From positions 1 through 30,509 of the IMG/VR virus record IMGVR_UViG_3300025910_000026: a stretch of DNA of 30,509 bases. One strand, 5' to 3'. A program made the position numbers and the translations under genes. Shown in pieces: positions 18,074 to 30,509 of the stretch (positions are counted from its first letter, which is position 1; each line of letters starts with the position of its first letter). This DNA is from a virus. Below the pieces are notes generated by a model. The model searched no databases and was not told the DNA's origin. It worked only from the letters and a program-made list of their open reading frames with translations.

Positions 18074-18787
18074 TTATGGCGCGGGAGGCTTCCCCGCTTC
18101 TTTCTTTTCCAGCGGATACAGTTCCGCCACGCTCTTGGGCGGATCAATGAAGAACTCGTTCCACGGCATCGCAAGGCTGTAGTAGCTGCTCCGATCGTAC
18201 TTCCTGGGATCCGCCTCTAGCTTCACGATGTAGACGTAATGCGCGAAGTAGGTATCGGTCCTGGGATTGAACTGTTCCTTGGTGGACTTCTCCACCCCGC
18301 TGTCGAGCATCATGTACGTCCCGCGCTTGGGACCGTTCAGGTTGATGTCCTTCCCGACGTTATCTTCCATGCGGATGACGTTCTGATAGCACTGGCCGAT
18401 GACGTGCTTGAAGCGGTCTTCCTCAAGCTCCGTGATGGCTCCGGGCCATGAAATCTTGTTGAGCGTCGAAGCGTCCTGACCGACTGCCCGCAGGCGCGTC
18501 TCGGTGAACGCATCAAATGAAAGCCCGCTCACGGAAAGCGATTGCTTCCACGGGCATTTCCCAACCCACTGATTGACTTCGCCTTCCCAGAGCTGCTGGG
18601 AAGTCACGTCAACGTAGGTAAAGTAGTCGTTGGTCTGCGAATCCTTTTCGCGGGTGCTTTGCTTCTGCTTGAAGGTGCCGGTTGCGGGAAGCATCCCGAA
18701 CCAATAGAGCGACGTCGCGGTTACGTCAAACGACGTAGCTTCCGGAGTGAGTTCCTGAACGGTAGGCGTCTTGGCTGTCCGACCCAT
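18074..18787 (-). CDS. hypothetical structural protein downstream of capsid gene (237 aa)
   Basis: The start ATG 18787 is preceded by AAGGAG. The 237-residue protein has no recognised family. It opens with TPTVQELTPEATSFDV, has aromatic-rich strands (FTYVDVTSQQLWEGEVNQWV), a helix with RLRAVGQDASTLNKI, an acidic helix (ELEEDRFKHVIGQCYQNVIR) and ends with a Pro-rich tail (EAGKPPAP). The position right after the major capsid gene and the strong ribosome binding site suggest a well-expressed virion protein, perhaps an inner or neck protein. No enzymatic motif or membrane segment is seen. Confidence 0.55.
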   Translation of the reverse strand: MGRTAKTPTVQELTPEATSFDVTATSLYWFGMLPATGTFKQKQSTREKDSQTNDYFTYVDVTSQQLWEGEVNQWVGKCPWKQSLSVSGLSFDAFTETRLRAVGQDASTLNKISWPGAITELEEDRFKHVIGQCYQNVIRMEDNVGKDINLNGPKRGTYMMLDSGVEKSTKEQFNPRTDTYFAHYVYIVKLEADPRKYDRSSYYSLAMPWNEFFIDPPKSVAELYPLEKKEAGKPPAP

Positions 18788-18823
18788 CGCGCATCTCCTT
18801 CCCGAATATCGTTTCTCGAATCA

Positions 18824-19816
18824 TCACACAATCTTGACCGCACTCTGGAAGAGGAAGCTGAAGATCGTCTCGCGGTTGTCGTACTGGACGTAAGGCTGTC
18901 CCGTATTCCGCGTGTGATCGCTCGTCTCCCAGTTGCCCACGGCTTCGTTCAGACCCTTGCGGAGCTGACGAGCCACCGCGCGGGTTTCATTCGGGATCCC
19001 CGTCAGGAACGTGTAGATAGCCGTGTTCGTGATCCTCTGGGACATCTGGGTGCTGTACTGCTTCCCGGAAACCATGATGGTGTTCCCGGTCCCGGCGGCC
19101 GTCGAAATGTCGGTCGTGGACGTCCCGGCGATCTTGGACATCACCGCCATCTGCTTGAACGCCTGCTGCATCACAAGGTTGATGCTCGTGCCGTAGAAGA
19201 TCGTGTAGTGCTGAAGATCCGACTCGTCCCAGAACGGCTGGGATTCCGAGTTCTGAAGGTCGTAGTACCGGGTATCCGCGGAGAAGATGTCCGTGATGAT
19301 CTGCTGGACCGTCGCGAATCCCGTCTGCGTCACGATGTTGCCGCTCGTCGCGCCTTCCCGGGCCGACGCCGAGAACAGCGCCGTGCCGTCGTAGGAAGTC
19401 GTCAGGATCGGCAGGAGGTCCGCATCCGTGCCCGCCGTGATGAACTGATACCAAAGACGCTCCGGGAGGGTAGCCCAGTTCTGCCCAAGGCCACGGGCAA
19501 CCTGCCAAGCGGTCTTCGTCTGATCGTCTTCCCAGTTGCGCGGGAGATAGACCCGGCGGCCCCAGTCCAGATTGGTGACGGAGATCTGGATCGAAAGGAC
19601 GTCCTTCGACGGCATCTGCTTTCCCGCATCCCAGCGGATGGGATAGATCGGCGCCTTGAGAGCGCCGTAGATCTCGGTCAGTTTGTCGGACGTGACTTCG
19701 CCGACAACGGAGCCGATGCGGGCCATGACGCCCTTGTATCTAGGGGAGAATGCGGAACTGTATTCGGCGCGAAGCCCGGCCGTAAGAAGGGCTCCAATGT
19801 TGACGGGGCTGGGCAT
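18824..19816 (-). CDS. major capsid protein (Mu gpT-like)
   Basis: The 330-residue protein starts at ATG 19816 behind AAGGAG. The N-terminal region (NIGALLTAGLRAEYSSAFSP, then ARIGSVVGEVTSDKLTEIYG) and the conserved middle (VYLPRNWEDDQTKTAW, followed by ARGLGQNWATLPERLWYQF and SYDGTALFSA at about 141-150) match the Mu-like major head subunit family, in which a D-D-Q near 97-99 and the YDGxxLF motif are usual. It would form the HK97-fold shell. Its place after the protease/scaffold and a decoration-type gene is as in Mu-like heads. Confidence 0.85.
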   Translation of the reverse strand: MPSPVNIGALLTAGLRAEYSSAFSPRYKGVMARIGSVVGEVTSDKLTEIYGALKAPIYPIRWDAGKQMPSKDVLSIQISVTNLDWGRRVYLPRNWEDDQTKTAWQVARGLGQNWATLPERLWYQFITAGTDADLLPILTTSYDGTALFSASAREGATSGNIVTQTGFATVQQIITDIFSADTRYYDLQNSESQPFWDESDLQHYTIFYGTSINLVMQQAFKQMAVMSKIAGTSTTDISTAAGTGNTIMVSGKQYSTQMSQRITNTAIYTFLTGIPNETRAVARQLRKGLNEAVGNWETSDHTRNTGQPYVQYDNRETIFSFLFQSAVKIV

Positions 19817-19841
19817 CTGTTATCTCCTTCTTAATTCCAAG

Positions 19842-20352: not shown

Positions 20353-20967
20353 CTAGTTCTTGGTCCCGATGCTGATATCCCAATGGCGCTCGTTACCTTC
20401 GGCCTGCTCCATCTGGAAGCGGACGTACTCCTCTTCCTTGATGGTCATGCCTCGGCCTGCGCCATGGCTCTTGAGCGTGCGGTACTCGCTGGCAAACCTC
20501 GCGGCCATCTCGAGCTTTTCCGGTCCCTGCTGGGAGAACTTCGCAAGCGCCGGATCGTTGATCGCAACGGAAGAGGCAGCCTCAGCCGCCGCGAACGTGC
20601 GAGGAGAATCCTTGGGGGTAACTTCCTTCAGCGTCTCGATGAAGGCGTTGAGCTGGGCCTCGCCTTCCTGGGCGAACTTGGCAATCTGGGCCTTGGCGCG
20701 ATCACCGATCTGATAGCCCCTCATGCTTTCCAGAGCCTTCGCCGTAAGCTCCTTCGCTTTGTCAGCGGCATCCCGCTCACTCAGGCGCTTTTCAGCGGCA
20801 GCAACCCGGTCCTCCATGGCTGCAAACCGGGCGGCATCCCGGGCTTCCTGTTCCATCTTCGCTCCAGCCTGAGCGACGGCGGGCTTGGCGCCGGGAGGCT
20901 GCTCGACGGGGGCGGCATTGGGCTTGCCGTGCTGCTCATCCTGAACGGGCTTCTTTTCGTCGGCCAT
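20353..20967 (-). CDS. nested scaffold protein (in-frame internal start of protease gene)
   Basis: ATG 20967, at codon 215 of the protease/scaffold gene, has TGGAGG eight bases upstream, a better ribosome binding site than that of the full-length gene. The 204-residue product begins MADEKKPVQD, has an Ala/Pro-rich linker and then long helices (DRVAAAEKRLSERDAADKAK and later EYRTLKSHGAG), the make-up of a scaffold. In Mu (I/Z) and lambda (C/Nu3), the scaffold is made in the same way from inside the protease gene. The internal start is a reading of the sequence; production of the short form is inferred. Confidence 0.7.
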   Translation of the reverse strand: MADEKKPVQDEQHGKPNAAPVEQPPGAKPAVAQAGAKMEQEARDAARFAAMEDRVAAAEKRLSERDAADKAKELTAKALESMRGYQIGDRAKAQIAKFAQEGEAQLNAFIETLKEVTPKDSPRTFAAAEAASSVAINDPALAKFSQQGPEKLEMAARFASEYRTLKSHGAGRGMTIKEEEYVRFQMEQAEGNERHWDISIGTKN

Positions 20968-21609
20968 GGGCTTTGCCTCCAGCTTGGATTTCTCAGACTC
21001 CTTATCGTCCTCTCGGGGATCGAACGTCACGCGCTCGAATCCATCCGAGAATCTAGCGATGGCGCATTCGGCGGGAAGTTCCGCCTCGAATTTTGCTGCG
21101 GGATCGGTGACAACTTTCCCGATAGTCATGAGCGGGAAAGGGTTGTGCGGCGGGATGCTGTCAAGAAGGGCGACCGAGGAGATACGGCCCTTTCTCCAGC
21201 TTCTAACCTCAGGAGAAACGTAGCCAAGCTCCCCAGACTCCATCTTGTCGAAGACCTTTTTCTTGATCTTGAAGTCGCTGTGGACAACCGGAACGTTGCC
21301 GAGATCCGGAAGATCCATCTCCTTTACTTTCGTCGGCACGAAATAGCCGCCGAACTCAGGGTTATGGATTCCCTGATCGTCCGTATGGGTCAGATGAATC
21401 GGATAGGCGATCTTGCTTTTGTTGTAAGCTTCCTGCCCAAACTTGATCGCGCCGTTGAACCAATCTGTGCTGATGTCTTCCGGCGCGTACATCTGGCCCT
21501 TTTTGACAGGGGCCAGAGTGGGGATGTCCTTCAGTACATACCAACCGTCACCGGTATCGTAGGCGGTATAGTCGCCGCCCTTGATATTCGGTTTGGTTGC
21601 GGATGCCAT
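20353..21609 (-). CDS. prohead protease with C-terminal scaffold domain (Mu I/Z-like)
   Basis: This 418-residue protein combines an N-terminal protease region (about 1-170) and a helical scaffold (about 215-410). In the first, the order YPIHLTHTDDQG (His 72 and 75), GYVSPEVRSW (Ser 132, S-x-E type) and ISSVALLDSIPPHNP fits phage head-maturation proteases with a His/Ser pair, including Mu gpI. It should cleave scaffold or capsid proteins inside the procapsid. The start ATG 21609 is the first after a 61-base gap and has only a modest AGG upstream. The nearby minor head and capsid genes support the role. The protease residues are inferred from pattern. Confidence 0.75.
   Translation of the reverse strand: MASATKPNIKGGDYTAYDTGDGWYVLKDIPTLAPVKKGQMYAPEDISTDWFNGAIKFGQEAYNKSKIAYPIHLTHTDDQGIHNPEFGGYFVPTKVKEMDLPDLGNVPVVHSDFKIKKKVFDKMESGELGYVSPEVRSWRKGRISSVALLDSIPPHNPFPLMTIGKVVTDPAAKFEAELPAECAIARFSDGFERVTFDPREDDKESEKSKLEAKPMADEKKPVQDEQHGKPNAAPVEQPPGAKPAVAQAGAKMEQEARDAARFAAMEDRVAAAEKRLSERDAADKAKELTAKALESMRGYQIGDRAKAQIAKFAQEGEAQLNAFIETLKEVTPKDSPRTFAAAEAASSVAINDPALAKFSQQGPEKLEMAARFASEYRTLKSHGAGRGMTIKEEEYVRFQMEQAEGNERHWDISIGTKN
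20976..20981 (-). promoter_or_regulatory. internal ribosome binding site for the nested scaffold
   Basis: TGGAGG on the - strand within the protease gene, eight bases before ATG 20967. It is stronger than the site before the full gene at 21609, as expected where scaffold must be made in larger amounts than protease. Confidence 0.65.
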
Positions 21610-21670
21610 TGATGCCTAGATTACGACCTATCTTTTGTGGGTCTATGGATGCGGATGATTTGACCGTGAA
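21610..21670 (-). other. 61-base gap before the protease gene
   Basis: The largest gap in the head and tail gene run. I see no clear hairpin or consensus promoter. Because it directly follows the RHH gene it is a possible operator or promoter region, but this is inference from position. Confidence 0.3.
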
Positions 21671-21850
21671 TTACTGCGTTTTGACGCCAGAAGGACGTAA
21701 GCTTTTCTTCTCTCTGAGATAAACAATGAGGAGCGTTCGCATGAAACCGCTATAGGTCTGACCTTGAGAATCGGCCTCAGCTTCTGCCTGCTCCCGCAAA
21801 GATAGACTCATGCGTACTGTGGTGTTGATGATCTTCGCGGGGATCTTCAT
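21671..21850 (-). CDS. ribbon-helix-helix (Arc/CopG-like) protein (59 aa)
   Basis: The start ATG 21850 overlaps the stop of the Mu F-like gene (TAATG), and the ORF ends at TAA 21673-21671. Residues 9-48 have the plan of a ribbon-helix-helix domain: a short strand with alternating residues (TTVRMSLSLRE), helix 1 (EQAEAEADSQG), a turn with Tyr-Ser, and helix 2 (GFMRTLLIVYLREKK). These dimers bind DNA by the strand pair and act as repressors or antitoxins. It lies within the head operon and could regulate late transcription. It is the last gene before a 61-base gap ahead of the protease gene. Confidence 0.65.
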   Translation of the reverse strand: MKIPAKIINTTVRMSLSLREQAEAEADSQGQTYSGFMRTLLIVYLREKKSLRPSGVKTQ

Positions 21851-22704
21851 TAGAGAGCCCCATCCTTAAACCCAGCATCCGCATGGAACGCCTGCCCGCC
21901 GACATAATGCGGAGCAAGCTTTTCATTCTTCCAGAGTCCAAGCCTTTCCGCCTCGAATCTCGAAACGAATTCCAGCCCGCAACGGCAATTATATCCGAGG
22001 GGCGGCTTGTGAGTATTCCAGATAGGATCGTCCGTTGCGGCTATCGTTCCGAATCCCGCTTGATGATTGGGCCGCGTGAAGTTGTCGGCAATCCCTGTGT
22101 ATCTGAAACCTACGATCACGTCGGCGATGTCAGGGTCTTCCGCTTGCTCCATGCGGCCTTCGTTATAAGCCGTCGCAACGTTTGTGCGGTAAACAGTATT
22201 CGCGTAAGCCTCAGAGAAAGGCCCGATCTCCTGAATCGTTTTCGAGATGGCTTGAGCTGGCTCGCCACCCATGAGCCATTTCGAGATTTCTTCCTGCGCT
22301 CTCTTGGTAATGACCATCTCGGCAGAGCGAGCCATCGCAAAGACTTTACTGGTGTTGTACAGCTTGGTTACTTCTGCGGCACTCTTGGCAAGCCTCGGCT
22401 CACGAATCAGCAAATCCTCTACCGCTTCCTCAAAGCTCAAGTTAGGCGCGATAGGCGACGTATCCGGCACGTCGGCAAACTTGGCAGACTTCGCTTTCGA
22501 TGCGTCGTACTCCATGAGCAATCGCTTACGGCCATTGAGATCCGCAAGGATCATGGTCCGCTGGATCGTCTCGGCGAGATCCTTCCTGGCTCCCTGGAGA
22601 TCCCCGCCGGTAAACTTCTCATGGGCGAGATTCATAACGGCTTGATAGAAAACCGTCGCCTTGCGGTCTAGAAACCTATCCAGTTCCGTATGCGCTTGGA
22701 TCAC
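21850..22704 (-). CDS. minor head protein, Mu gpF / SPP1 gp7-like
   Basis: The start GTG 22704 overlaps the stop of the upstream gene (GTGA). The protein is helical for its first 160 residues (QAVMNLAHEKFTGGDLQGAR) and carries the family core ANTVYRTNVATAYNEGR at 168-184, then GFRYTGIADNFTRPNHQAG and the C-terminal PPLGYNCRCGLEFVS at 234-248, which is the Cys-containing end typical of Mu F-like proteins. These proteins sit next to the portal and act in head assembly or DNA entry. The portal gene, usually adjacent upstream, is absent here; instead the GroES-like and sugar genes lie upstream. Confidence 0.8.
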   Translation of the reverse strand: MIQAHTELDRFLDRKATVFYQAVMNLAHEKFTGGDLQGARKDLAETIQRTMILADLNGRKRLLMEYDASKAKSAKFADVPDTSPIAPNLSFEEAVEDLLIREPRLAKSAAEVTKLYNTSKVFAMARSAEMVITKRAQEEISKWLMGGEPAQAISKTIQEIGPFSEAYANTVYRTNVATAYNEGRMEQAEDPDIADVIVGFRYTGIADNFTRPNHQAGFGTIAATDDPIWNTHKPPLGYNCRCGLEFVSRFEAERLGLWKNEKLAPHYVGGQAFHADAGFKDGAL

Positions 22705-22985
22705 AGTGCCAGCCTAGGCCCTTTCCCGTTTACCGGCACGATCACATTCCCGAACATCCCTTTGAGCTTGCTCGTGCCTACCTCATCCACTTCGTACAGC
22801 GTCATGTTGGAGACTTGGTAGGATTTCGGTTTGCACATACCGTCAAGCGACGGGATCCACTTCACAAGGCCCATCCCGCCGTCAGGTGTCAGCATCGCAA
22901 AGGCAACGCGACAGCAGTTCCCTTGCTCGTCAATCTCGACGGCACCACCGTAGGTGCCGATATCTGGAGTGAAGTACCATTTCAC
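22701..22985 (-). CDS. hypothetical protein between co-chaperonin and minor head genes (94 aa)
   Basis: It starts at GTG 22985, which shares one base with the stop of the GroES-like gene (TAGTG), and GGAGG lies at good spacing upstream. The protein is strand-rich (GGAVEIDEQGNCCRVAFAML, SYQVSNMTLYEVDEVG) and ends GNVIVPVNGKGPRLAL. No family is recognised. It is tightly linked to the Mu F-like gene by a GTGA overlap and so is probably made with head proteins. Two adjacent Cys at 24-25 are notable but no metal site is complete. Confidence 0.55.
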   Translation of the reverse strand: MKWYFTPDIGTYGGAVEIDEQGNCCRVAFAMLTPDGGMGLVKWIPSLDGMCKPKSYQVSNMTLYEVDEVGTSKLKGMFGNVIVPVNGKGPRLAL

Positions 22986-23767
22986 TAGTTGCCTCCTGAA
23001 TCCACCAGCGTCTTCTGGTTCAACTCGTCAAGGTGACTTTCCGGGATGACTTCGTAATCGTCTACAGGCTTGGCTAGTTTGTCCTGTCCTGCGATCACGT
23101 CCACGATTCCGCCTTCAATCACCGCTTCGATATCTTCCTCGCTGACAAGGCGGTATTCAATCCCTTTCACGCGCACGATGCATCCGGCATAGCGCATACA
23201 GATAGCTTTGTCTCCCGGCTTGACGGATACCGGCGTCGGCTTGTCGGCCTTCTGTTTCCTCGCTCCAGGGCCAATCGAAACGACTTCAGCCACCCGGTAC
23301 ATCGCCTGTGGATTGCTCGGCATGAATAGGTGACCTTTCAGCGTCTTTTCCTCGCTGTCCATCTTGACCAGAATGTGATCCCGGTAGGGGAATAGCTCTG
23401 CGATCTCCCAATCCATTTCACTCTTCATGCTGAGGATCAGCCTCGCCCAAATCCCATGATCCCGAATCAGCTTGTACTTCTTGCCTACCGCCTGAACCTT
23501 CTCCCCCATGTACTGCACCGACATGATGATATCGCCTTCTTTGAGCGCGATGGGATAAACCTTGCCGGATTCAGGGTTGAACTCGCCTTGCCCTAGACGC
23601 ACTACCCGACCATACAAGCATTCGCTTTTCTCGTTGCCGGGAATGATTAGTCCAGACTTGGAATAGCTACGGTCTAGAACTTCGACCAGAATGTAATCCG
23701 CCAAGGGTGCAATCTCCTTAGGGTCGGGGAGCTTGTAGGCGACGTCACTAATCAGGGAACGGGGCAT
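22985..23767 (-). CDS. tandem GroES-domain co-chaperonin (Cpn20-like architecture)
   Basis: ATG 23767 follows GGAGG at five bases and overlaps the previous stop (TGATG). The 260-residue protein has two GroES domains. Domain 1 (about 21-112) shows PLADYILVEVLDRSYSKSGL, then LYGRVVRLGQG, LKEGDIIMSVQYMGEKVQAV and KYKLIRDHGI; domain 2 (about 128-220) shows PYRDHILVKMD, KGHLFMP, AEVVSIGPGAR, VKPGDKAICMRYAGCIVRVK and EYRLVSEEDIEAVI. Each keeps the mobile-loop hydrophobic triplet that GroES uses to bind GroEL (LII at 40-42; LFM at 147-149). Phage GroES-like proteins such as T4 gp31 help fold capsid protein with host GroEL, and the place just before head genes agrees. The chain ends in a 40-residue acidic tail. 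Confidence 0.85.
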   Translation of the reverse strand: MPRSLISDVAYKLPDPKEIAPLADYILVEVLDRSYSKSGLIIPGNEKSECLYGRVVRLGQGEFNPESGKVYPIALKEGDIIMSVQYMGEKVQAVGKKYKLIRDHGIWARLILSMKSEMDWEIAELFPYRDHILVKMDSEEKTLKGHLFMPSNPQAMYRVAEVVSIGPGARKQKADKPTPVSVKPGDKAICMRYAGCIVRVKGIEYRLVSEEDIEAVIEGGIVDVIAGQDKLAKPVDDYEVIPESHLDELNQKTLVDSGGN

Positions 23768-24612
23768 CAGGGCCTCCAACCGAATAGATCAAGATCCTTG
23801 AATCTCTCCGCACCATACTCCCGCACCATGCGCTTGCATTCCCGCTCATACCACACGGGCGCATTCAGGTTGATCTTGCTCTTGGGATAGTCGCCCCACC
23901 AGCTTTCAGGAATTTTCAGCAAGTCATTCCCATGGGGCGGCTTCAAAGCCCAATGGTATTTCTCGGTAATCTCACTTGCTGGATAACTCCAGCGGACTAA
24001 CTCGCTCATCATGTAATGACGATGCTTCCAGATGAATCGGTTCCATGCCGCAAACTGCAAGTGCATGACCCCGCCAGCGGCATCAACTACAGGCGTGCGG
24101 ATTCCGCAATGCGGCGGTCTGTTGTGATGGTGGTATTTCTCTTCTCCCCGTGGAGCGAAGCCCAAGCCGGGAGCATCCTTGAATCCAAGCGTGATGATCC
24201 CGCGAGTATGAGGCGAATACCAATCCAGCGACTTCCAAGGCGCGATCATCGGCACGTCTAGGACTTCGCCGTCTTTGAGCGCGCCGAACCAGTTACGAAC
24301 ATTGCCTAGATTGTTGTGGGTCAGAATCTCATCAGCGTCTGTAATGGAACAATGAGTAGCACCAAGACTTCTAGCGTCCTCAAGATTCTTCTGCCTGTGA
24401 TCCATTTCATCCCAGTGTTCTCCATCCACGTTCTCGGACGTGATGAAGTCTTTATCGGATGATTTGGCGATTTCCTTTACGATTTCTACCGTGTAGTCCG
24501 TGCAGCGGTCGAAGAAGATGGCGGCACCGTCACACCAGCGCATAGCGGCCCTGAGAGATGCGCCGAGGATCCATTCCTCATTGCGTAGGACGCAAAGGGC
24601 GATGATTCTCAT
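23767..24612 (-). CDS. glycosyltransferase, family 2-like
   Basis: The 281-residue protein begins with the GT2-type strand and first loop RIIALCVLRNEEWILGASLR, then AAIFFDRCTDYTVEIVKEI and the DxD motif at 92-94 in CSITDADEILTHNN, which binds the metal and sugar nucleotide. The C-terminal half has WNRFIWKHRHYMMSELVRWS and ALKPPHGND, as in short soluble GT2-like enzymes. There is no membrane segment, so it acts in the cytoplasm. ATG 24612 overlaps the stop of the epimerase gene (ATGA). Substrate and acceptor are unknown. Confidence 0.8.
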   Translation of the reverse strand: MRIIALCVLRNEEWILGASLRAAMRWCDGAAIFFDRCTDYTVEIVKEIAKSSDKDFITSENVDGEHWDEMDHRQKNLEDARSLGATHCSITDADEILTHNNLGNVRNWFGALKDGEVLDVPMIAPWKSLDWYSPHTRGIITLGFKDAPGLGFAPRGEEKYHHHNRPPHCGIRTPVVDAAGGVMHLQFAAWNRFIWKHRHYMMSELVRWSYPASEITEKYHWALKPPHGNDLLKIPESWWGDYPKSKINLNAPVWYERECKRMVREYGAERFKDLDLFGWRP

Positions 24613-25526
24613 GCTTTAGAAAAATAGTTTGTATACCACCCGATGCACTTCGCCAAGCCTTCTTCCAGCGAATGGCTAGGCTTCCATCCCAGCTTCTCAC
24701 GGGCGAGCCCTGCGTTAGTCCACTGGTCTACGATCTCTCCATGCCTATCGACTTCATCAACAGGAATGAGATCCGATCCCATGAGTTGCAGGAGAGTATC
24801 CACGATGTACTTGACCGTCACACCTTGACCGCTGCCGAAGTTCATAGGGCCGGTGTAGTCGCTGGCGGCAAGCTTGAGATAGGCGTCTATCGCATCGTCA
24901 ATGTAAAGCCAGTCCCGCCGCATCTTCCCGCCGTTGCGGATCATCGGACGAATCCCTTGCAGGATTCGCCGGATCGTGTTAGGCACCAGCGTAGACAGGC
25001 TCAGGCATCCAGGGCCGTAGAGATTGACGCACCGAGTCGTAGCGATGCTCATGCCGTAACTGGACGTGTAGGTACGGGCGATAAGATCGACGCAAGCCTT
25101 GGACGTCTCATAAGGACGATCCGGGGATAGCGGCAAGTCTTCATGATAAGGCGGCGCTGTACGGCCATAAGCCTTGTCTGAGCTGCTGACTACCACACGC
25201 CTGATCTTCTGTCTACGGCACGCTTCAAGGATATTCCAAGTCCCCTTGATGTTGGTTTCAAACGTGCCGGTAGGATCCGTCAAGCCTACCGCTATTTCTG
25301 TAATAGCTGCCAAGTGGAACACAGTATCTATCTGATGGCGGGCTAGAACGGCATCCCACATAGCCCCATCGGACAAATCGCTGAACACGGCGTTATCGAA
25401 ATCTTTGTGATCCGACTTGTGGAGATGATGGAAGATGGCCGTTACCACGACGCCTTGCTTGCGTAGCGCGGCACAGAGATGACGGCCTAGAAAGCCGTTG
25501 GAGCCTGTAACGAGAGCCCGCTTCAA
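24609..25526 (-). CDS. NAD-dependent nucleotide-sugar epimerase/dehydratase (extended SDR)
   Basis: The 305-residue protein has the SDR plan: G-x2-G-x2-G in TGSNGFLGRHL (7-17), an Asp after strand 3, HLAAI at 71-75, catalytic Ser in VVVSSSDKAYG (111-121), Y139-x3-K143 in RPYETSKACVD, CVNLYGPG, and RRDWLYIDDAIDAYL near 210-225. The SSDKAYG segment is reminiscent of CDP-glucose 4,6-dehydratase and GDP-mannose dehydratase relatives, but the substrate cannot be fixed. The start is TTG 25526, overlapping the FkbM stop (TTGA), with AAAGG upstream. It would make a modified sugar nucleotide for the neighbouring transferases. Confidence 0.85.
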   Translation of the reverse strand: MKRALVTGSNGFLGRHLCAALRKQGVVVTAIFHHLHKSDHKDFDNAVFSDLSDGAMWDAVLARHQIDTVFHLAAITEIAVGLTDPTGTFETNIKGTWNILEACRRQKIRRVVVSSSDKAYGRTAPPYHEDLPLSPDRPYETSKACVDLIARTYTSSYGMSIATTRCVNLYGPGCLSLSTLVPNTIRRILQGIRPMIRNGGKMRRDWLYIDDAIDAYLKLAASDYTGPMNFGSGQGVTVKYIVDTLLQLMGSDLIPVDEVDRHGEIVDQWTNAGLAREKLGWKPSHSLEEGLAKCIGWYTNYFSKA

Positions 25527-26113
25527 GCTAGACCTTTCTCAATGGCTAGGACATCCCAATAGTTCTCAATGCACCCGTATCGCTTTTCCCACACCTGATT
25601 TTGAATAACATACCACCGCCTGAGTTTATCTATGATCCTGTCACACTCTGCGCGGCCTCTGGCTCGGTCGGTATGTTCGTGGAAACTGAAGACGATCTGG
25701 CGAGCAATGGGGCCGTCAATCTCGTCTAGGATGTCGTACTCACTGCCTTCGATATTGAGTTTGATGAGATCCCACTGAACGCCAGCCATCGGAAGTGCAT
25801 TAAGTGAAACAGCCTCAACCGGCACAGAATAGGCGTCCTTATCCACTTGGGTATGCCAAGCGTTAGGATCAGAGCTTAGATGAAGATGCATTCCGCGTGG
25901 ATACTTCTTTCCAACTAGAGCCGCCTCATAAAGAGTGACACCCTTTGGAGCTTCTCCGATATCCGGACTTGGATCAAATGCGTAGACATGATGCCCCCGA
26001 TCAGCAAACCATTTCGCAAAGACAAAGCCCCTAGCCCCAGCGTCAAGGACAGGCCCCTTCGTGAGCAAGTCTTCCCTGAACGAATGGTTGTCTACAGTCA
26101 ATAGGTTTTGCAT
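25523..26113 (-). CDS. FkbM-family SAM-dependent methyltransferase
   Basis: ATG 26113 is chosen, which overlaps the upstream gene by 16 bases; longer versions overlap more. The 196-residue protein has the SAM-binding loop PVLDAGARGFVFAKWF at 21-36, an acidic end of strand 2 (YAFDPSPD) and the family signature DLIKLNIEGSEYDIL at 115-129, matching FkbM domains. FkbM proteins commonly O-methylate sugars of glycolipids, polysaccharides or glycosylated surface proteins. The lengths and neighbours (sugar epimerase, transferases) agree with methylation of a glycan. It is coupled to the epimerase gene. Confidence 0.8.
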   Translation of the reverse strand: MQNLLTVDNHSFREDLLTKGPVLDAGARGFVFAKWFADRGHHVYAFDPSPDIGEAPKGVTLYEAALVGKKYPRGMHLHLSSDPNAWHTQVDKDAYSVPVEAVSLNALPMAGVQWDLIKLNIEGSEYDILDEIDGPIARQIVFSFHEHTDRARGRAECDRIIDKLRRWYVIQNQVWEKRYGCIENYWDVLAIEKGLA

Positions 26114-26802
26114 ACCGTCTGCCAATCCGTATAACTCAGCGGCTCCATTCCAAGCTGCTCGATCATGAGAGTAAAGCAACTCTCATCCGATCTGTGGCCC
26201 TCTACTCTTGGGTCAAGCGAGATGATCGAACTGTCCGCATCGGCTAGAAGCAGCGAGCGCATGACGTTGTTCCCATCCAGCCCCAGCCGCCGATTAGCTC
26301 CCGTCATGAGCGTTTTTACTTTAGCGATTTCTCCCCACTTCTCAAAGAACTTCATAGCTATAGGGTTATCCCGATCCAGGGCCACGATACAGCCCCCGCA
26401 CAGCGTCTTCGTGAACGCCTCTTCCCGGGTCACTCCGAAGTACTTGAGCGCCTCATCACTGATCCATTTCCCGAGATTGTCGGCCCCCCTCAGGATGATA
26501 TGCCCCATGGACTTCAGGCGATCCCATAGCGGAGTCAGTGGGGCAAGCGCCTGAGTCCCGGCGTCAAGCCACATGACGTAGCGATAGCCTTGGTCGAACA
26601 TAGCCTTAACCGCCCACCATTTGAACGAGTAGGTACTCTCTTGGTGTGACGGCGAGCCCGGAGGCCAGAACTTGCGGTAGATATGGACGTCAGCGCCCAT
26701 GCCGTACTGACCTAGACTCGCTTCCAGCCTGTCCGCGAACTTGGCGTAGTACTCCGGGTTATGCGGAGCAAAGCAGCAGCTAACAATTACACGGTCGTTC
26801 AT
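26098..26802 (-). CDS. glycosyltransferase-like protein (GT-A type)
   Basis: ATG 26802 overlaps the stop of the upstream gene (ATGA), so a longer frame upstream is not used. The 234-residue protein begins VIVSCCFAPHNPEYYAKFAD, then has KWWAVKAMFDQGYRYVMWLD with Asp 80 and D-A-G in place of the usual D-x-D, followed by LCGGCIVALDRDN and a C-terminal VEGHRSDESCFTLM. This is the plan of small nucleotide-sugar transferases of the GT-A type with an altered metal motif. Its acceptor is unknown. The single-Asp motif and lack of close family make this a slightly less certain transferase. Confidence 0.65.
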   Translation of the reverse strand: MNDRVIVSCCFAPHNPEYYAKFADRLEASLGQYGMGADVHIYRKFWPPGSPSHQESTYSFKWWAVKAMFDQGYRYVMWLDAGTQALAPLTPLWDRLKSMGHIILRGADNLGKWISDEALKYFGVTREEAFTKTLCGGCIVALDRDNPIAMKFFEKWGEIAKVKTLMTGANRRLGLDGNNVMRSLLLADADSSIISLDPRVEGHRSDESCFTLMIEQLGMEPLSYTDWQTVCKTY

Positions 26803-27302
26803 TGAATGATTGCCGTCTCTTCGTCGGTAAGCCCGAACGCTTCCACATCGCTTAAGATCAAAGTATGAGGGCGAAGCATCCGGTACGTTTCGTTGTGCTT
26901 GAATTGGCCGATGATGTACTCGTAGTAGTAAGCCGCCGCTGGGCCTGCTTCGTGATCGTGAAGGATAATAAAGCGAGCGCGGCCCTTGAGCTTCATCGCA
27001 AGGTGACGGCGTTCCTCTCCAGGGGCGCAATCAATGAAGGCAACGCCGTAATGCTTCTGCTTTGGCTCCCACTTTGACCAGTTCTCTACTAGTGGCACGT
27101 TGAAGATCTTAGCCCACTCTGGATTGCTATCGTAAGATTCAAGGATGCGCGGGATTGGCAACCCTGCCGTACGCGTGCACATCAACCGCAACATTGGTGT
27201 TGAAGTCCACCCGCAACCAAGCTCAAGAACTGGCCCAAGGCTGCGAGCCACAGCAGCAGCTAACACTGGGAAGTGACTCCCATAACCAATGTCAGGGCGC
27301 AT
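26799..27302 (-). CDS. class I SAM-dependent methyltransferase-like protein
   Basis: ATG 27302 overlaps the upstream stop by one base (TAATG) with GGAG nine bases upstream; ATG 27317 is an alternative. The protein has a motif I loop PVLELGCGWTSTPML at 24-38, a strand-2 end ESYDSNPEW (55-63), YGVAFIDCAPGEERRHLA at 85-102 and FIILHDHEAG at 111-120. These are the expected strands 1, 2, 4 and 5 of a Rossmann-type methyltransferase. The substrate is unknown; the location between sugar genes suggests a glycan or sugar donor. It ends in ATGA overlap with the transferase gene. Confidence 0.7.
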   Translation of the reverse strand: MRPDIGYGSHFPVLAAAVARSLGPVLELGCGWTSTPMLRLMCTRTAGLPIPRILESYDSNPEWAKIFNVPLVENWSKWEPKQKHYGVAFIDCAPGEERRHLAMKLKGRARFIILHDHEAGPAAAYYYEYIIGQFKHNETYRMLRPHTLILSDVEAFGLTDEETAIIQ

Positions 27303-27541
27303 TAGCGTTCGCTCCATTCGCCCAAGCCCGCACCATGCCTCACCAGAGGAACGAACGTCACCTTGACGTTAGCATCCTGCAAGACGTTGAGATCAACGCT
27401 TGGAAGGACTTGGAGATCAACTACCGCGTCCCAGACTTTGACTACCACGGCGGGGAGTTCTGGCCGATGGCCTTTGTCGTGGAATAGCGGATCGTCAATG
27501 CGAGGATGGTACAACACAATCGACCCGACGCTAACAGTCAT
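27302..27541 (-). CDS. small conserved phage protein, SH3-like barrel candidate (79 aa)
   Basis: The gene starts at ATG 27541, 10 bases inside the end of the upstream gene. The sequence VGSIVLYHPRIDD, HRPELPAVVVKVWDAVVDLQ and a final GLGEWSER follows a recurring pattern of small phage proteins (opening G-x-I-V-x-Y, then P-A-x-V-V-x-V-W, ending G-x-W-x-x-x-R), thought to be a small beta-barrel. Its function is unknown. Its presence within a sugar-gene cluster may be incidental or may mark a fixed phage gene around which island genes were added. Confidence 0.6.
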   Translation of the reverse strand: MTVSVGSIVLYHPRIDDPLFHDKGHRPELPAVVVKVWDAVVDLQVLPSVDLNVLQDANVKVTFVPLVRHGAGLGEWSER

Positions 27542-28379
27542 ATCCCCTCGCTTTCGAGTAAGCCTCGCGGTACTTGTCCACCCAATCCATTTTCTCAGGA
27601 ATGTAATGCTCGATGATCGGTCTGATCTTGGGCCAGTTCTCTCGAGTAGCTCCAGGCCTGATCAAATGAGTATCGACGTACTTCTTTGACCAGTCGAATT
27701 CCGCAGGCCAGCAGCCTCGGTCAATCCGGTCATGCGGCGGGCATCCTTCCCGTGTGATCATCTGCACTCGATCAGGATAGCCGCCCCACGCTTTCAGCTT
27801 GGAATTGAAGTAGAGTTCATCCTGCCACCACGCCATCCAGCTATCGTGATAGCGGCCTAGAGTCCTGTCGAAGTTGGCCTGCATCTGACTGAGGATCTCG
27901 CCGCGCACTTCAAGCTGCATGACTTCACGCCATTTTTTGACGGTGGCTTGTATGTACGGCGTGGGATGGAACGGCGGATAGGGCCAGCCGTAAGCGTTGG
28001 CGTACCAGCTTGTGAAATCCCACCTAACCGGATCATGCTGGCGGAACCAGTCCCCGTCCAAACTCCACATGTCGATATCGCCCGTGACGAGTTGATCATC
28101 TTCGGGGATATCCAATGCAGCGGCGTGTTGTCTTGAAGATTGAGCAGCCTGAGCGTCTCTGTAGCCTTCAAGCTTGCCGATATGCTCTACTTTTGCGCCA
28201 GCCTCAATAGTGGCGTTCTTGACTACTTGAGCAACCGGATTCTCCCATTCCTTGGAAGTGTCAGTAAAGAAACAGAGCGTCCGGTAGCCTACAATGTGCT
28301 TCCAGAAAAGCGTCGTGATCGGTGCGAAGAAGTCATAGCTTCCGGATTGATTTGTAGCGATGACGGCGTAAGTGGTCAT
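27531..28379 (-). CDS. glycosyltransferase-like protein (GT-A type)
   Basis: The 282-residue protein begins TTYAVIATNQSGSYDFFAPI, has TLCFFTDTSKEW (strand 2), and the DxD motif at 101-103 in QLVTGDIDMWSLDG. The central part (DFTSWYANAYGWPYPPFHPT) and MAWWQDELYFNSKLKAWGG probably form the acceptor pocket, as DE and WW are typical near the active site. The C-terminal HYIPEKMDWVDKYREAYSKA is helical. It is cytoplasmic, without membrane segments. ATG 28379 lies two bases after the upstream stop. Sugar donor and acceptor are unknown. Confidence 0.7.
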   Translation of the reverse strand: MTTYAVIATNQSGSYDFFAPITTLFWKHIVGYRTLCFFTDTSKEWENPVAQVVKNATIEAGAKVEHIGKLEGYRDAQAAQSSRQHAAALDIPEDDQLVTGDIDMWSLDGDWFRQHDPVRWDFTSWYANAYGWPYPPFHPTPYIQATVKKWREVMQLEVRGEILSQMQANFDRTLGRYHDSWMAWWQDELYFNSKLKAWGGYPDRVQMITREGCPPHDRIDRGCWPAEFDWSKKYVDTHLIRPGATRENWPKIRPIIEHYIPEKMDWVDKYREAYSKARGYDC

Positions 28380-28381
28380 GA

Positions 28382-28567
28382 TTAACGTTCTACAATCGAG
28401 TATTTTCCTTTAGATCCCAGCTTGCGTTCCGCATCGTCAATTTCGCTAATGCAGATACGTATCTTTTGCTTTGACGCCTCAGTCAACCGTTCTCTGGTTA
28501 GATCAACAGCTAGGATCTGCCTAATAACTTCCGCAACGCCAGCGTCAAGCTCAATGTACTTACTCAT
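28382..28567 (-). CDS. small helical hypothetical protein (61 aa)
   Basis: It starts at ATG 28567, overlapping the upstream stop as ATGA. It is all-helical and charged: ELDAGVAEVIRQILAVDLTR, then LTEASKQKIRICISEIDDAE and a basic tail. No family is recognised. It might be an assembly or regulatory partner, but nothing in the sequence shows this. The size, start coupling and clean frame support a true gene. Confidence 0.55.
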   Translation of the reverse strand: MSKYIELDAGVAEVIRQILAVDLTRERLTEASKQKIRICISEIDDAERKLGSKGKYSIVER

Positions 28568-29370
28568 ATCCTCGAAATCCTTTCATTCGATTCCACCCCA
28601 GCCCAACCTTTCTCGCACTCTTCGATCTCTGCAAGCTTTGGACAATGGCCGCGATTGCGTGAGAACCAGCCTACCAGCGGATCCACATGATAGGCGCCGC
28701 CAATGTGATTCGTTAGCTGATCAATGTAGCTGTCTTTCGCTCCCAGCGTCGTGCGATCCTCATAAGCAATCTGACCCCCAGCATGAGGCAGGATCGCAGC
28801 ATTCAGCAATCGTTGATCCGCCCCGTGCTGATTCATGTCGATCCCGAACTGATCCGCCAGGGCCATGAAGGACGCCCAGCTAGAAAACCGATCCAGCATC
28901 CAGTCGGCCTTAAAGCCGACCATTCCACCCATCAACGCCGTGGAACTATGGGACTCGCTATCGTGAAGGGCCGAGATAGCACGATCAGAAGCAATCCACT
29001 TCTCGATAGCTCTCCGCTCCCGTGGAGTCGAGAGCGAATCTACATCCCTGCACAGCACACGCTTGACGCTAAGATTCCAAATCGGCAGGAGCCGCCAGCA
29101 CATCGCACCGCAGAGCTTGGTAGCCTCGCCCATGGGAATCAGCTTGAGCAATCCGCGTTCGTGCATTCGCTCCATGACCGGCCAATAGCTGTACTCCCTG
29201 ACTCGATTATCGTGGTACAGCCACAGCGACCAATCGGGATAGACAGCCCAGTGACCACGCACGATGGCACGGATGTAGTTACAGAAGAAAACGCCACGGC
29301 CAGCGCCAGCGCGTTCAGATTCGTATGCGCTGTTGGCGTGGCGATAGAAACTGTAGGCGATGACATTCAT
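28564..29370 (-). CDS. glycosyltransferase-like protein with DxD motif
   Basis: The 268-residue protein begins NVIAYSFYRHANSAYESERA, then has PDWSLWLYHDNRV, a strand with KRVLCRDVDSLSTPRERRAI carrying DVD at 109-111 and a later GGMVGFKADWMLDRF and QHGADQRLLNAAILPHAGG with a conserved-type D-Q-x-L-L-N. This is the order expected for a GT-A nucleotide-sugar transferase (donor loop, DxD, acceptor site). ATG 29370 overlaps the mini-HTH stop (ATGA). Role in glycan synthesis is likely from motif and neighbours; specificity is unknown. Confidence 0.7.
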   Translation of the reverse strand: MNVIAYSFYRHANSAYESERAGAGRGVFFCNYIRAIVRGHWAVYPDWSLWLYHDNRVREYSYWPVMERMHERGLLKLIPMGEATKLCGAMCWRLLPIWNLSVKRVLCRDVDSLSTPRERRAIEKWIASDRAISALHDSESHSSTALMGGMVGFKADWMLDRFSSWASFMALADQFGIDMNQHGADQRLLNAAILPHAGGQIAYEDRTTLGAKDSYIDQLTNHIGGAYHVDPLVGWFSRNRGHCPKLAEIEECEKGWAGVESNERISRI

Positions 29371-29495
29371 CTAACGTAGGCCCTAAGGATCTGTTCCACT
29401 GTAACGCGCTTTACCTTCCACAGCTTTGCGAGCATAGACATGGACATCCCAAAGCGGAACTGATCTGCAATCGTATCCTTAGTGCGTTTGCTCAT
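29367..29495 (-). CDS. mini helix-turn-helix protein (42 aa) within the sugar island
   Basis: The ORF runs from ATG 29495 to TGA 29369-29367, with ATGA overlaps at both ends with its neighbours. The sequence is MSKRTKDTIADQFRFG followed by MSMSMLAKLWKVKRVTVEQI and LRAYVR: helix 1, a turn after KLWKVK and a recognition helix (RVTVEQILRAYV). It resembles the second half of phage mini-HTH proteins such as the one at 605-769 (G-x-T/M-I/S-x-x-I/L-A...V-E-x-I-I/L-R). It probably binds DNA. The double coupling argues strongly for a true gene. Confidence 0.65.
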   Translation of the reverse strand: MSKRTKDTIADQFRFGMSMSMLAKLWKVKRVTVEQILRAYVR

Positions 29496-29983
29496 AGCTG
29501 CGCCACCATGATATCTTCCGGCACTACCCCATCCTCAAAGCTGATCTTGTAATCCGCAATCGCCTTGAGATGGGAGATGATGATTTCTTTCGAGAGGCCC
29601 CAGCCTTCCATGCAGCGCATGTCGTCGATGAGGATGACGCGAGGCGATAGATTCCATCTTGCTATTGAATCCAGCTCATGCAGCACGGGGCTATGGGTTT
29701 CTGTATGAGCGTCCAAGAACACAACAGAAGGTACCGCATATCCATCATGCCTTAGATAGAGGGTTGACGGCTCGCACATTACTGACGCATTCCCCCTCGG
29801 GCACGCCTCCCTTAGATGGGCGCTTGCAAGACTGGCATACAAGGCATCATTCTCACAACCAAAAGCACTTACGGCTCCACACTCAATTGCGCGTATGAGA
29901 GTGTCACCCCAACGGCTGCCGCACTCGACAAAGATCATTCCCGGCTTCACATACTTCGCCAGCACTTCGCGGGAGATACTCAC
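29492..29983 (-). CDS. class I SAM-dependent methyltransferase-like protein (163 aa)
   Basis: GTG 29983 is preferred because it overlaps the upstream stop (GTGA) with GAGGG 10 bases before it; TTG 29992 is an alternative. Motif I is MIFVECGSRWGDTLIRAIE at 16-34, then FGCENDALYASLASAH (strand 2 acidic residue), VPSVVFLDAHTETHSPVLHE with Asp 91 and VILIDDMRCMEGWG at 117-130. The strands and acidic residues at their ends fit a small Rossmann methyltransferase. A sugar or lipid-glycan substrate is suggested only by its neighbours. Confidence 0.65.
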   Translation of the reverse strand: MSISREVLAKYVKPGMIFVECGSRWGDTLIRAIECGAVSAFGCENDALYASLASAHLREACPRGNASVMCEPSTLYLRHDGYAVPSVVFLDAHTETHSPVLHELDSIARWNLSPRVILIDDMRCMEGWGLSKEIIISHLKAIADYKISFEDGVVPEDIMVAQL

Positions 29984-30509
29984 AGCGGGCAAGCCCTCAT
30001 GAAAGCGTCAGCCACTTGCGAGACATCCGGCACAAAGCTGATTGCGGGCGGCAAAGTCGGATCGTCTCTCAGGTCTACAGGATGCGGTACGTCCATTCCT
30101 ACGGAAGCAAAGTAGTCCCTGAACTTCGCCCCATCGCCTCCAAGCGAATCACTGATCTTGACCCAAGTAGCGGGAATCCCATAGGCGTGAGCCACGATGA
30201 TCCCATGCAGCGAACTCGAATAGATCATCTTGCAGGAGGCGATATCCTCGATCACTTCCTCGATAGGCTTAAACACGTCGATGAAGTCGCGGTATCTGTC
30301 GAAGGCTCTGTAGGCGTCAACGTAGTGGCTGACTACCCCAAACGGCTTACTCGGCTTGCTCTTGGGGGTGTAAAACCTCGGCAACAGCATCCCAGGATCA
30401 CCATATACCGCTGGGCAATCCCGGCCCGTTGACAGCACTCTAGCCCGCGTGAGCGGCCCACGTACCGCCATGATCTTGCACTTGGGATTTACGCCATCGG
30501 TAATGGTCC
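29980..30509 (-). CDS. polysaccharide pyruvyl transferase-like protein, C-terminal part (cut by window edge)
   Basis: The reading frame is open to the right edge, so the true start lies beyond 30509. The visible 176 or so residues contain the order typical of the pyruvyl transferase family: KIMAVRGPLTRARVLSTG, then CPAVYGDPGMLLPRFYTP, GVVSHYVDAYRAF, VIEDIASCKMIYSSSLHGII and VAHAYGIPATWVKIS. The S-S-L-H-G-I-I/V-A motif and the V-R-G-P-L-T-R motif are the best markers. Enzymes of this family transfer pyruvate from phosphoenolpyruvate to a sugar hydroxyl, adding negative charge to surface polysaccharides. It is coupled to the methyltransferase gene by a 4-base overlap. Confidence 0.8.
   Translation of the reverse strand, partial: TITDGVNPKCKIMAVRGPLTRARVLSTGRDCPAVYGDPGMLLPRFYTPKSKPSKPFGVVSHYVDAYRAFDRYRDFIDVFKPIEEVIEDIASCKMIYSSSLHGIIVAHAYGIPATWVKISDSLGGDGAKFRDYFASVGMDVPHPVDLRDDPTLPPAISFVPDVSQVADAFMRACPL

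Follow-up and report, generated by a model that had tools for sequence, protein, structure and literature searches.

Genome context of the tandem GroES gene

The window, by which we mean the whole stretch of DNA that was analysed (30,509 nucleotides), carries on its minus strand a gene for a co-chaperonin with two GroES domains in one chain, which in the direction of transcription follows a set of sugar-related genes and precedes the genes for the phage head. The features of this region are:

23767..24612, minus strand, putative glycosyltransferase (upstream gene; weak Glyco_tranf_2_4 match below the Pfam cut-off), overlapping the tandem gene by 1 nt
23773..23777, minus strand, GGAGG, ribosome-binding-like sequence 5 nt ahead of the ATG
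22985..23767, minus strand, tandem GroES co-chaperonin gene, 260 aa (open reading frame with two PF00166 domains)
22701..22985, minus strand, downstream gene, 94 aa, no assigned function; its GTG start overlaps the TAG of the tandem gene (TAGTG)
21850..22704, minus strand, Phage Mu F-like head morphogenesis protein (MuF; PF04233, E 5.2e-21; PHROG 220)
18824..19816, minus strand, major head protein, 330 aa (PHROG 371, E 4.3e-7; Mu-like gpT just under the Pfam cut-off)

The tandem gene is a single frame of 260 aa that starts with ATG at 23767 and ends with TAG at 22987-22985, and its ATG is overlapped by the TGA of the upstream gene (TGATG). Considering that it shares one-base overlaps with both of its neighbours, and that a GGAGG precedes each of the two stop/start overlaps, it is most likely co-translated with the head operon. 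In the order of transcription the genes run from a sugar/methyltransferase island through the tandem GroES gene, the 94-aa gene, MuF, a 418-aa and a 163-aa gene to the major head protein, with a tail-completion/neck protein among the later genes. Both the phage origin proposed in the preliminary description and its claim that the gene lies just before the head genes are supported, and the position is conserved in relatives. The order sugar genes, tandem GroES, MuF and head genes is kept in two related contigs (L009 and L135) and in part in a third (L134), and in the relatives G001 and G004 the terminase and portal genes lie upstream of the sugar/methyltransferase island.

The island itself (window 23767-30509) is sugar-modifying and methyltransferase-like, with an epimerase, an FkbM methyltransferase and weak glycosyltransferase matches, and several of its encoded proteins have no Pfam match. 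Long antisense frames run over the head genes, both in the window (18542-19834, plus strand, 430 aa; 20383-21612, plus strand, 409 aa) and in L134 (12085-15810, minus strand, 1241 aa); they probably arise as a side effect of the codon usage of the coding strand.

Two GroES domains in one reading frame

Within the tandem gene we distinguish the following parts:

23444..23713, minus strand, GroES domain 1 (Pfam Cpn10; DNA-level scan 58.1 bits, profile positions 2-91 of 93)
23627..23668, minus strand, predicted mobile loop of domain 1, residues 34-47, triplet LII (the only part of domain 1 with pLDDT <50)
23387..23452, minus strand, domain junction, residues 106-127 (predicted secondary structure: last strand of domain 1 at 106-116, turn, first strand of domain 2 at 119-127)
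23117..23389, minus strand, GroES domain 2 (Pfam Cpn10; DNA-level scan 59.9 bits, profile positions 4-93 of 93)
23306..23350, minus strand, predicted mobile loop of domain 2, residues 140-154, triplet LFM (the only part of domain 2 with pLDDT <50)
22988..23116, minus strand, C-terminal tail outside both domains, 43 aa, residues 218-260, with a predicted helix at 243-256

Pfam PF00166 (Cpn10) matches the 260-aa protein twice in one unbroken frame, at 113.5 bits for the whole protein and against a curated cut-off of 21.1 bits. Scanned alone, half 1 scored 57.9 bits (E 1.1e-15, profile positions 2-91 of 93) and half 2 scored 59.1 bits (E 4.4e-16, positions 4-93 of 93), and with E near 1e-15 for each half a chance match is excluded. 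The preliminary description had argued for two true GroES domains, and this was borne out: rather than one half only being recognised by the profile, both match near full length. The DNA-level PF00166 scan of the 30,509-base record found no stops within either domain. Compared with each other the two halves share 29% identity over 92 aa.

Both halves thus belong to the Cpn10/GroES family by their PF00166 score over the complete domain, and both also have the mobile loop with a hydrophobic triplet, read in the window protein as GLIIP in domain 1 and GHLFMP in domain 2. As its single chain joins two Cpn10 domains head to tail, the protein has the domain arrangement of Cpn20-type co-chaperonins and not that of T4 gp31, which has a single domain per chain. 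The 43-aa tail is present in the window protein and its three closest relatives and absent from two shorter relatives (G007 and G008), and the Pfam scan reported no known domain in it. Across the four members that have it (window 22988-23116) the tail is conserved, with the pattern DDYEV...DSGG.

Predicted structure

A single-chain AlphaFold2 model built on an alignment of six rows was of moderate overall confidence, with a mean pLDDT of 69.5 and a pTM of 0.67. Most strand blocks reached 75-91, and pLDDT fell below 50 at residues 34-47 and 140-154 (the two loops), at the N terminus and in parts of the tail. Its best PDB match was chain 7ekq_Q, Chlamydomonas Cpn23, with Z 14.8 and an rmsd of 3.5 for 188 residues over both domains, and Cpn20 and Cpn23 chains also ranked top in a PDB profile search. 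GroES/Cpn10 chains align to the model one domain at a time (Z 9.6-12.3), as the Cpn10 fold would have it. The Cpn20-like arrangement that had been proposed from the sequence therefore reappears in the model, whose predicted inter-domain arrangement matches that of the solved Cpn20/Cpn23 chains.

In GroES rings the C-terminal strand and the N-terminal strand of neighbouring subunits pair, and a fusion of two subunits would thus place domain 2 at the site of the next ring subunit. We infer that the strand pair 106-116/119-127 of the model is what fused neighbouring ring subunits would be expected to look like.

Relatives and constraint

Scans of IMG/VR and of bacterial genome contigs with the window protein gave no matches, and relatives were reached by way of the head protein and the terminase. 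The head-protein scan led to four contigs at 82-85% identity, and all three that cover the region carry the tandem gene. The terminase alignment led to 79 viral loci; a Cpn10 search covering 48 viral records from this list and two bacterial genomes found the tandem form in two of the 48 (G007 and G008, with terminases at 72% identity and tandem proteins about 216-221 aa long), and a few distant terminase relatives had one diverged Cpn10 domain (frames read in G014, G032, G044 and G052). In all, the tandem gene is found in six related tailed-phage contigs from different metagenome data sets, at 34-65% protein identity. Although the window taken alone is one metagenomic contig, and might as such be an assembly chimera or a frame artefact fusing two neighbouring genes, the same single open frame without an internal stop recurs in the six contigs; this refutes the artefact, whose probability we regard as practically nil.

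Both domains are under purifying selection, with dN of 0.18-0.44 against dS of at least 1.3, and often saturated, among the four closest members. Domain 1 is slightly more conserved than domain 2 (65% versus 57% mean pairwise identity). The preliminary description had singled out the mobile-loop triplets LII and LFM, and in the alignment the triplet proved to be hydrophobic in 12/12 domains of the six phages (LII, LII, III, LIL, IFL and ILI in domain 1; LFM, VYL, LFL, LFL, LYL and VLL in domain 2).

An Isosphaeraceae MAG contig (L036:9941-11953) has a terminase 43% identical with a single-domain GroES adjoining it. This single-domain GroES may be related to the tandem form, and the contig gives a hint of planctomycete hosts for related phages. 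Among the matches listed for 392 genomes of the same phylum the length was roughly that of one domain, and these are most likely normal GroES. A head-protein screen of 47 genomes from the class of a Ktedonobacteria genome, run without a positive control, gave no match.

Origin of the doubling

In our trees the domain 1 sequences of all six phages group together (100/95), as do those of domain 2 (84/83). Since the two domains group separately, the sequences indicate that the doubling is most likely older than the divergence of these phages. The two phage groups join each other (84/93) before they join single GroES and chloroplast Cpn20, which in a small taxon sample favours, without being decisive, a phage-line doubling independent of the one in Cpn20. 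A domain-by-domain grouping with Cpn20 is missing from the best tree, but the trees constrained to it, with AU p values of 0.115 and 0.054, are not firmly rejected. On these trees the phage tandem GroES is probably of independent origin from chloroplast Cpn20. A conserved phage tandem of separate origin would make the fusion of two lid subunits a solution that can be reached repeatedly.

Comparison with known co-chaperonins

Similar to the Cpn20/Cpn23 proteins of chloroplasts and apicoplasts (PDB 7ekq, chains Q and R), the phage protein has two Cpn10 domains head to tail with a short linker and both mobile loops. However, its gene adjoins head genes, its chains may carry a C-terminal tail, and its two domains group together (84/93) instead of pairing domain by domain with those of Cpn20, a difference that favours a separate duplication without being decisive. 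With T4 gp31 it shares being a phage co-chaperonin with the GroES fold, and the gp31 structure 1g31 matches one domain of the model (Z 8.8) at about 12% identity in the fold alignment; unlike the window protein, gp31 has only one domain, and it assembles as a heptamer (PMC6318259). The single-domain GroES proteins of phages such as Achromobacter phage Motura and Escherichia phage 121Q (phrog_3188) are of the same Pfam family, and phrog_3188 matches both halves of the window protein, but proteins of this type have one domain and about 90-100 aa.

The preliminary description had seen a puzzle in how a tandem form could cap GroEL. The puzzle is not new, as it has been answered in principle for Cpn20. 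Seven-fold symmetry can be reached by three tandem chains and one single domain, or by eight domains of which one is excluded, as documented for Cpn20 or for GroES concatemers (PMC5780408, PMC3542282), and double-domain co-chaperonins work with GroEL (PMC3542282, PMC5780408).

A proposed lid on host GroEL

We propose that the gene encodes a phage co-chaperonin whose two GroES domains per chain act in a lid on host GroEL during head assembly, and give this reading a probability of about 0.78. No GroEL/Cpn60 family match was found in the window or in three related contigs (G001, G003 and G004), all of them linear and perhaps incomplete, and from these sequences the chaperonin partner is thus probably the GroEL of the host. 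Each chain would supply two adjacent lid subunits. The contact by which separate GroES subunits are ordinarily linked would here be made within the chain, between the last strand of domain 1 and the first of domain 2, and the mobile loops of both domains would dock on GroEL. The ring might be closed by four chains, giving eight domains with one unbound to GroEL, or by three chains and one host GroES subunit, giving seven. GroEL binding, the composition of the ring and the phage proteins that would be folded are all our reading of the sequence and the model; the position of the gene makes it plausible that head proteins are among them. T4 gp23 is larger than 330 aa, the length of the major head protein in the window, so that the cage-size argument made for gp31 is not directly transferable. 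Tentatively, and at clearly less than even odds, we suggest that the lid is asymmetric, with two kinds of domain kept distinct since before the phages diverged, that it either recruits one host GroES to reach seven domains or has one GroEL site or one lid domain without a partner, and that its cage differs from that of the host. A conserved phage tandem of separate origin would extend the gp31 theme of phages that replace GroES and keep the host GroEL, and would offer a natural prokaryotic system for an even-domained lid on a seven-fold chaperonin.

As a sub-case of the lid reading that differs in ring composition, three tandem chains might combine with one host GroES into a phage-specific seven-domain lid. 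In Arabidopsis, Cpn20 and Cpn10 have been reported to combine 3:1, and the Cpn10, Cpn20 and Cpn23 of Chlamydomonas function only as hetero-oligomers (PMC3542282, PMC5780408). Moreover, neither the window nor five related contigs (G001, G003, G004, G007 and G008; linear, perhaps incomplete) showed a single-domain GroES, so that the single subunit would have to be that of the host. Mixing is however not required, as Plasmodium Cpn20 works as a sole co-chaperonin (PMC3542282), and the phage domains are only about 29-38% identical to bacterial GroES, a divergence that may weaken mixed contacts; we regard this composition as possible but on the unlikely side.

Two further readings dispense with a working lid. 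The protein might serve in the virion or in its assembly, for instance as a head accessory protein, reusing the GroES fold without any partnership with GroEL. This would suit the place of the gene, immediately ahead of MuF and the head operon and overlapping its neighbours at start and stop codons, and a tail conserved in four members. A structural protein has, however, no evident need of a hydrophobic loop triplet, which is kept in every domain of the six phages, and the predicted fold is that of a full Cpn10, making this an improbable account. Even less credible is a decoy or inhibitor whose loops bind GroEL without a lid that can close, thereby blocking or redirecting folding in the host: chains with an even number of domains do lack a simple fit to a seven-fold ring, but other tandem co-chaperonins are fully functional (PMC5780408, PMC3542282), the Cpn10 profile is kept in both domains of six phages, and the gene adjoins late head genes and not early takeover genes.

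Other viral candidates

In the literature tandem GroES is placed in plastids and their relics only (PMC3542282), and our literature search, which was weak on subscription journals, found no published description of one in a phage. On the other hand, a fold search of BFVD returned about four other viral proteins that align over both domains, and the tandem GroES of the six phages is perhaps not the sole viral one. In a tblastn search of INPHARED (50,697 phage records; queries the window protein, L009, G007, G008 and Cpn20) there was no confirmed same-frame tandem. The high coverages obtained with Cpn20 and in one case with G007 were artefacts, both halves of the query matching the same approximately 300 bases, and one candidate (H114) was ruled out as a single GroES followed by a separate gene. 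Several unannotated matches are probably bacterial contigs, with one clear case among the annotated records. The record L006 (CAKLQH020000021.1), labelled Acinetobacter phage, has groES-groEL amid bacterial housekeeping neighbours and looks bacterial.

The proteins from the fold search, Cellulophaga phage phi18:3 gp096 and BFVD entries A0A516LTQ1, A0A516L046 and A0A516LJK4, are 180-300 aa long, with models that align with both domains at TM 0.34-0.47 by query length. In gp096, unlike the window protein, Cpn10 is recognised by sequence in the second half only; hhalign gave no support for its first half, and we found no close sequence relation to the six-phage family. The gp096 gene lies just before the terminase and portal genes. 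In the phi18:3 genome this 200-aa protein annotated as GroES (L034:41458-42057) may be a diverged tandem, and a separate 84-aa GroES (L034:31108-31362) would make with it a possible 2+1 domain set.
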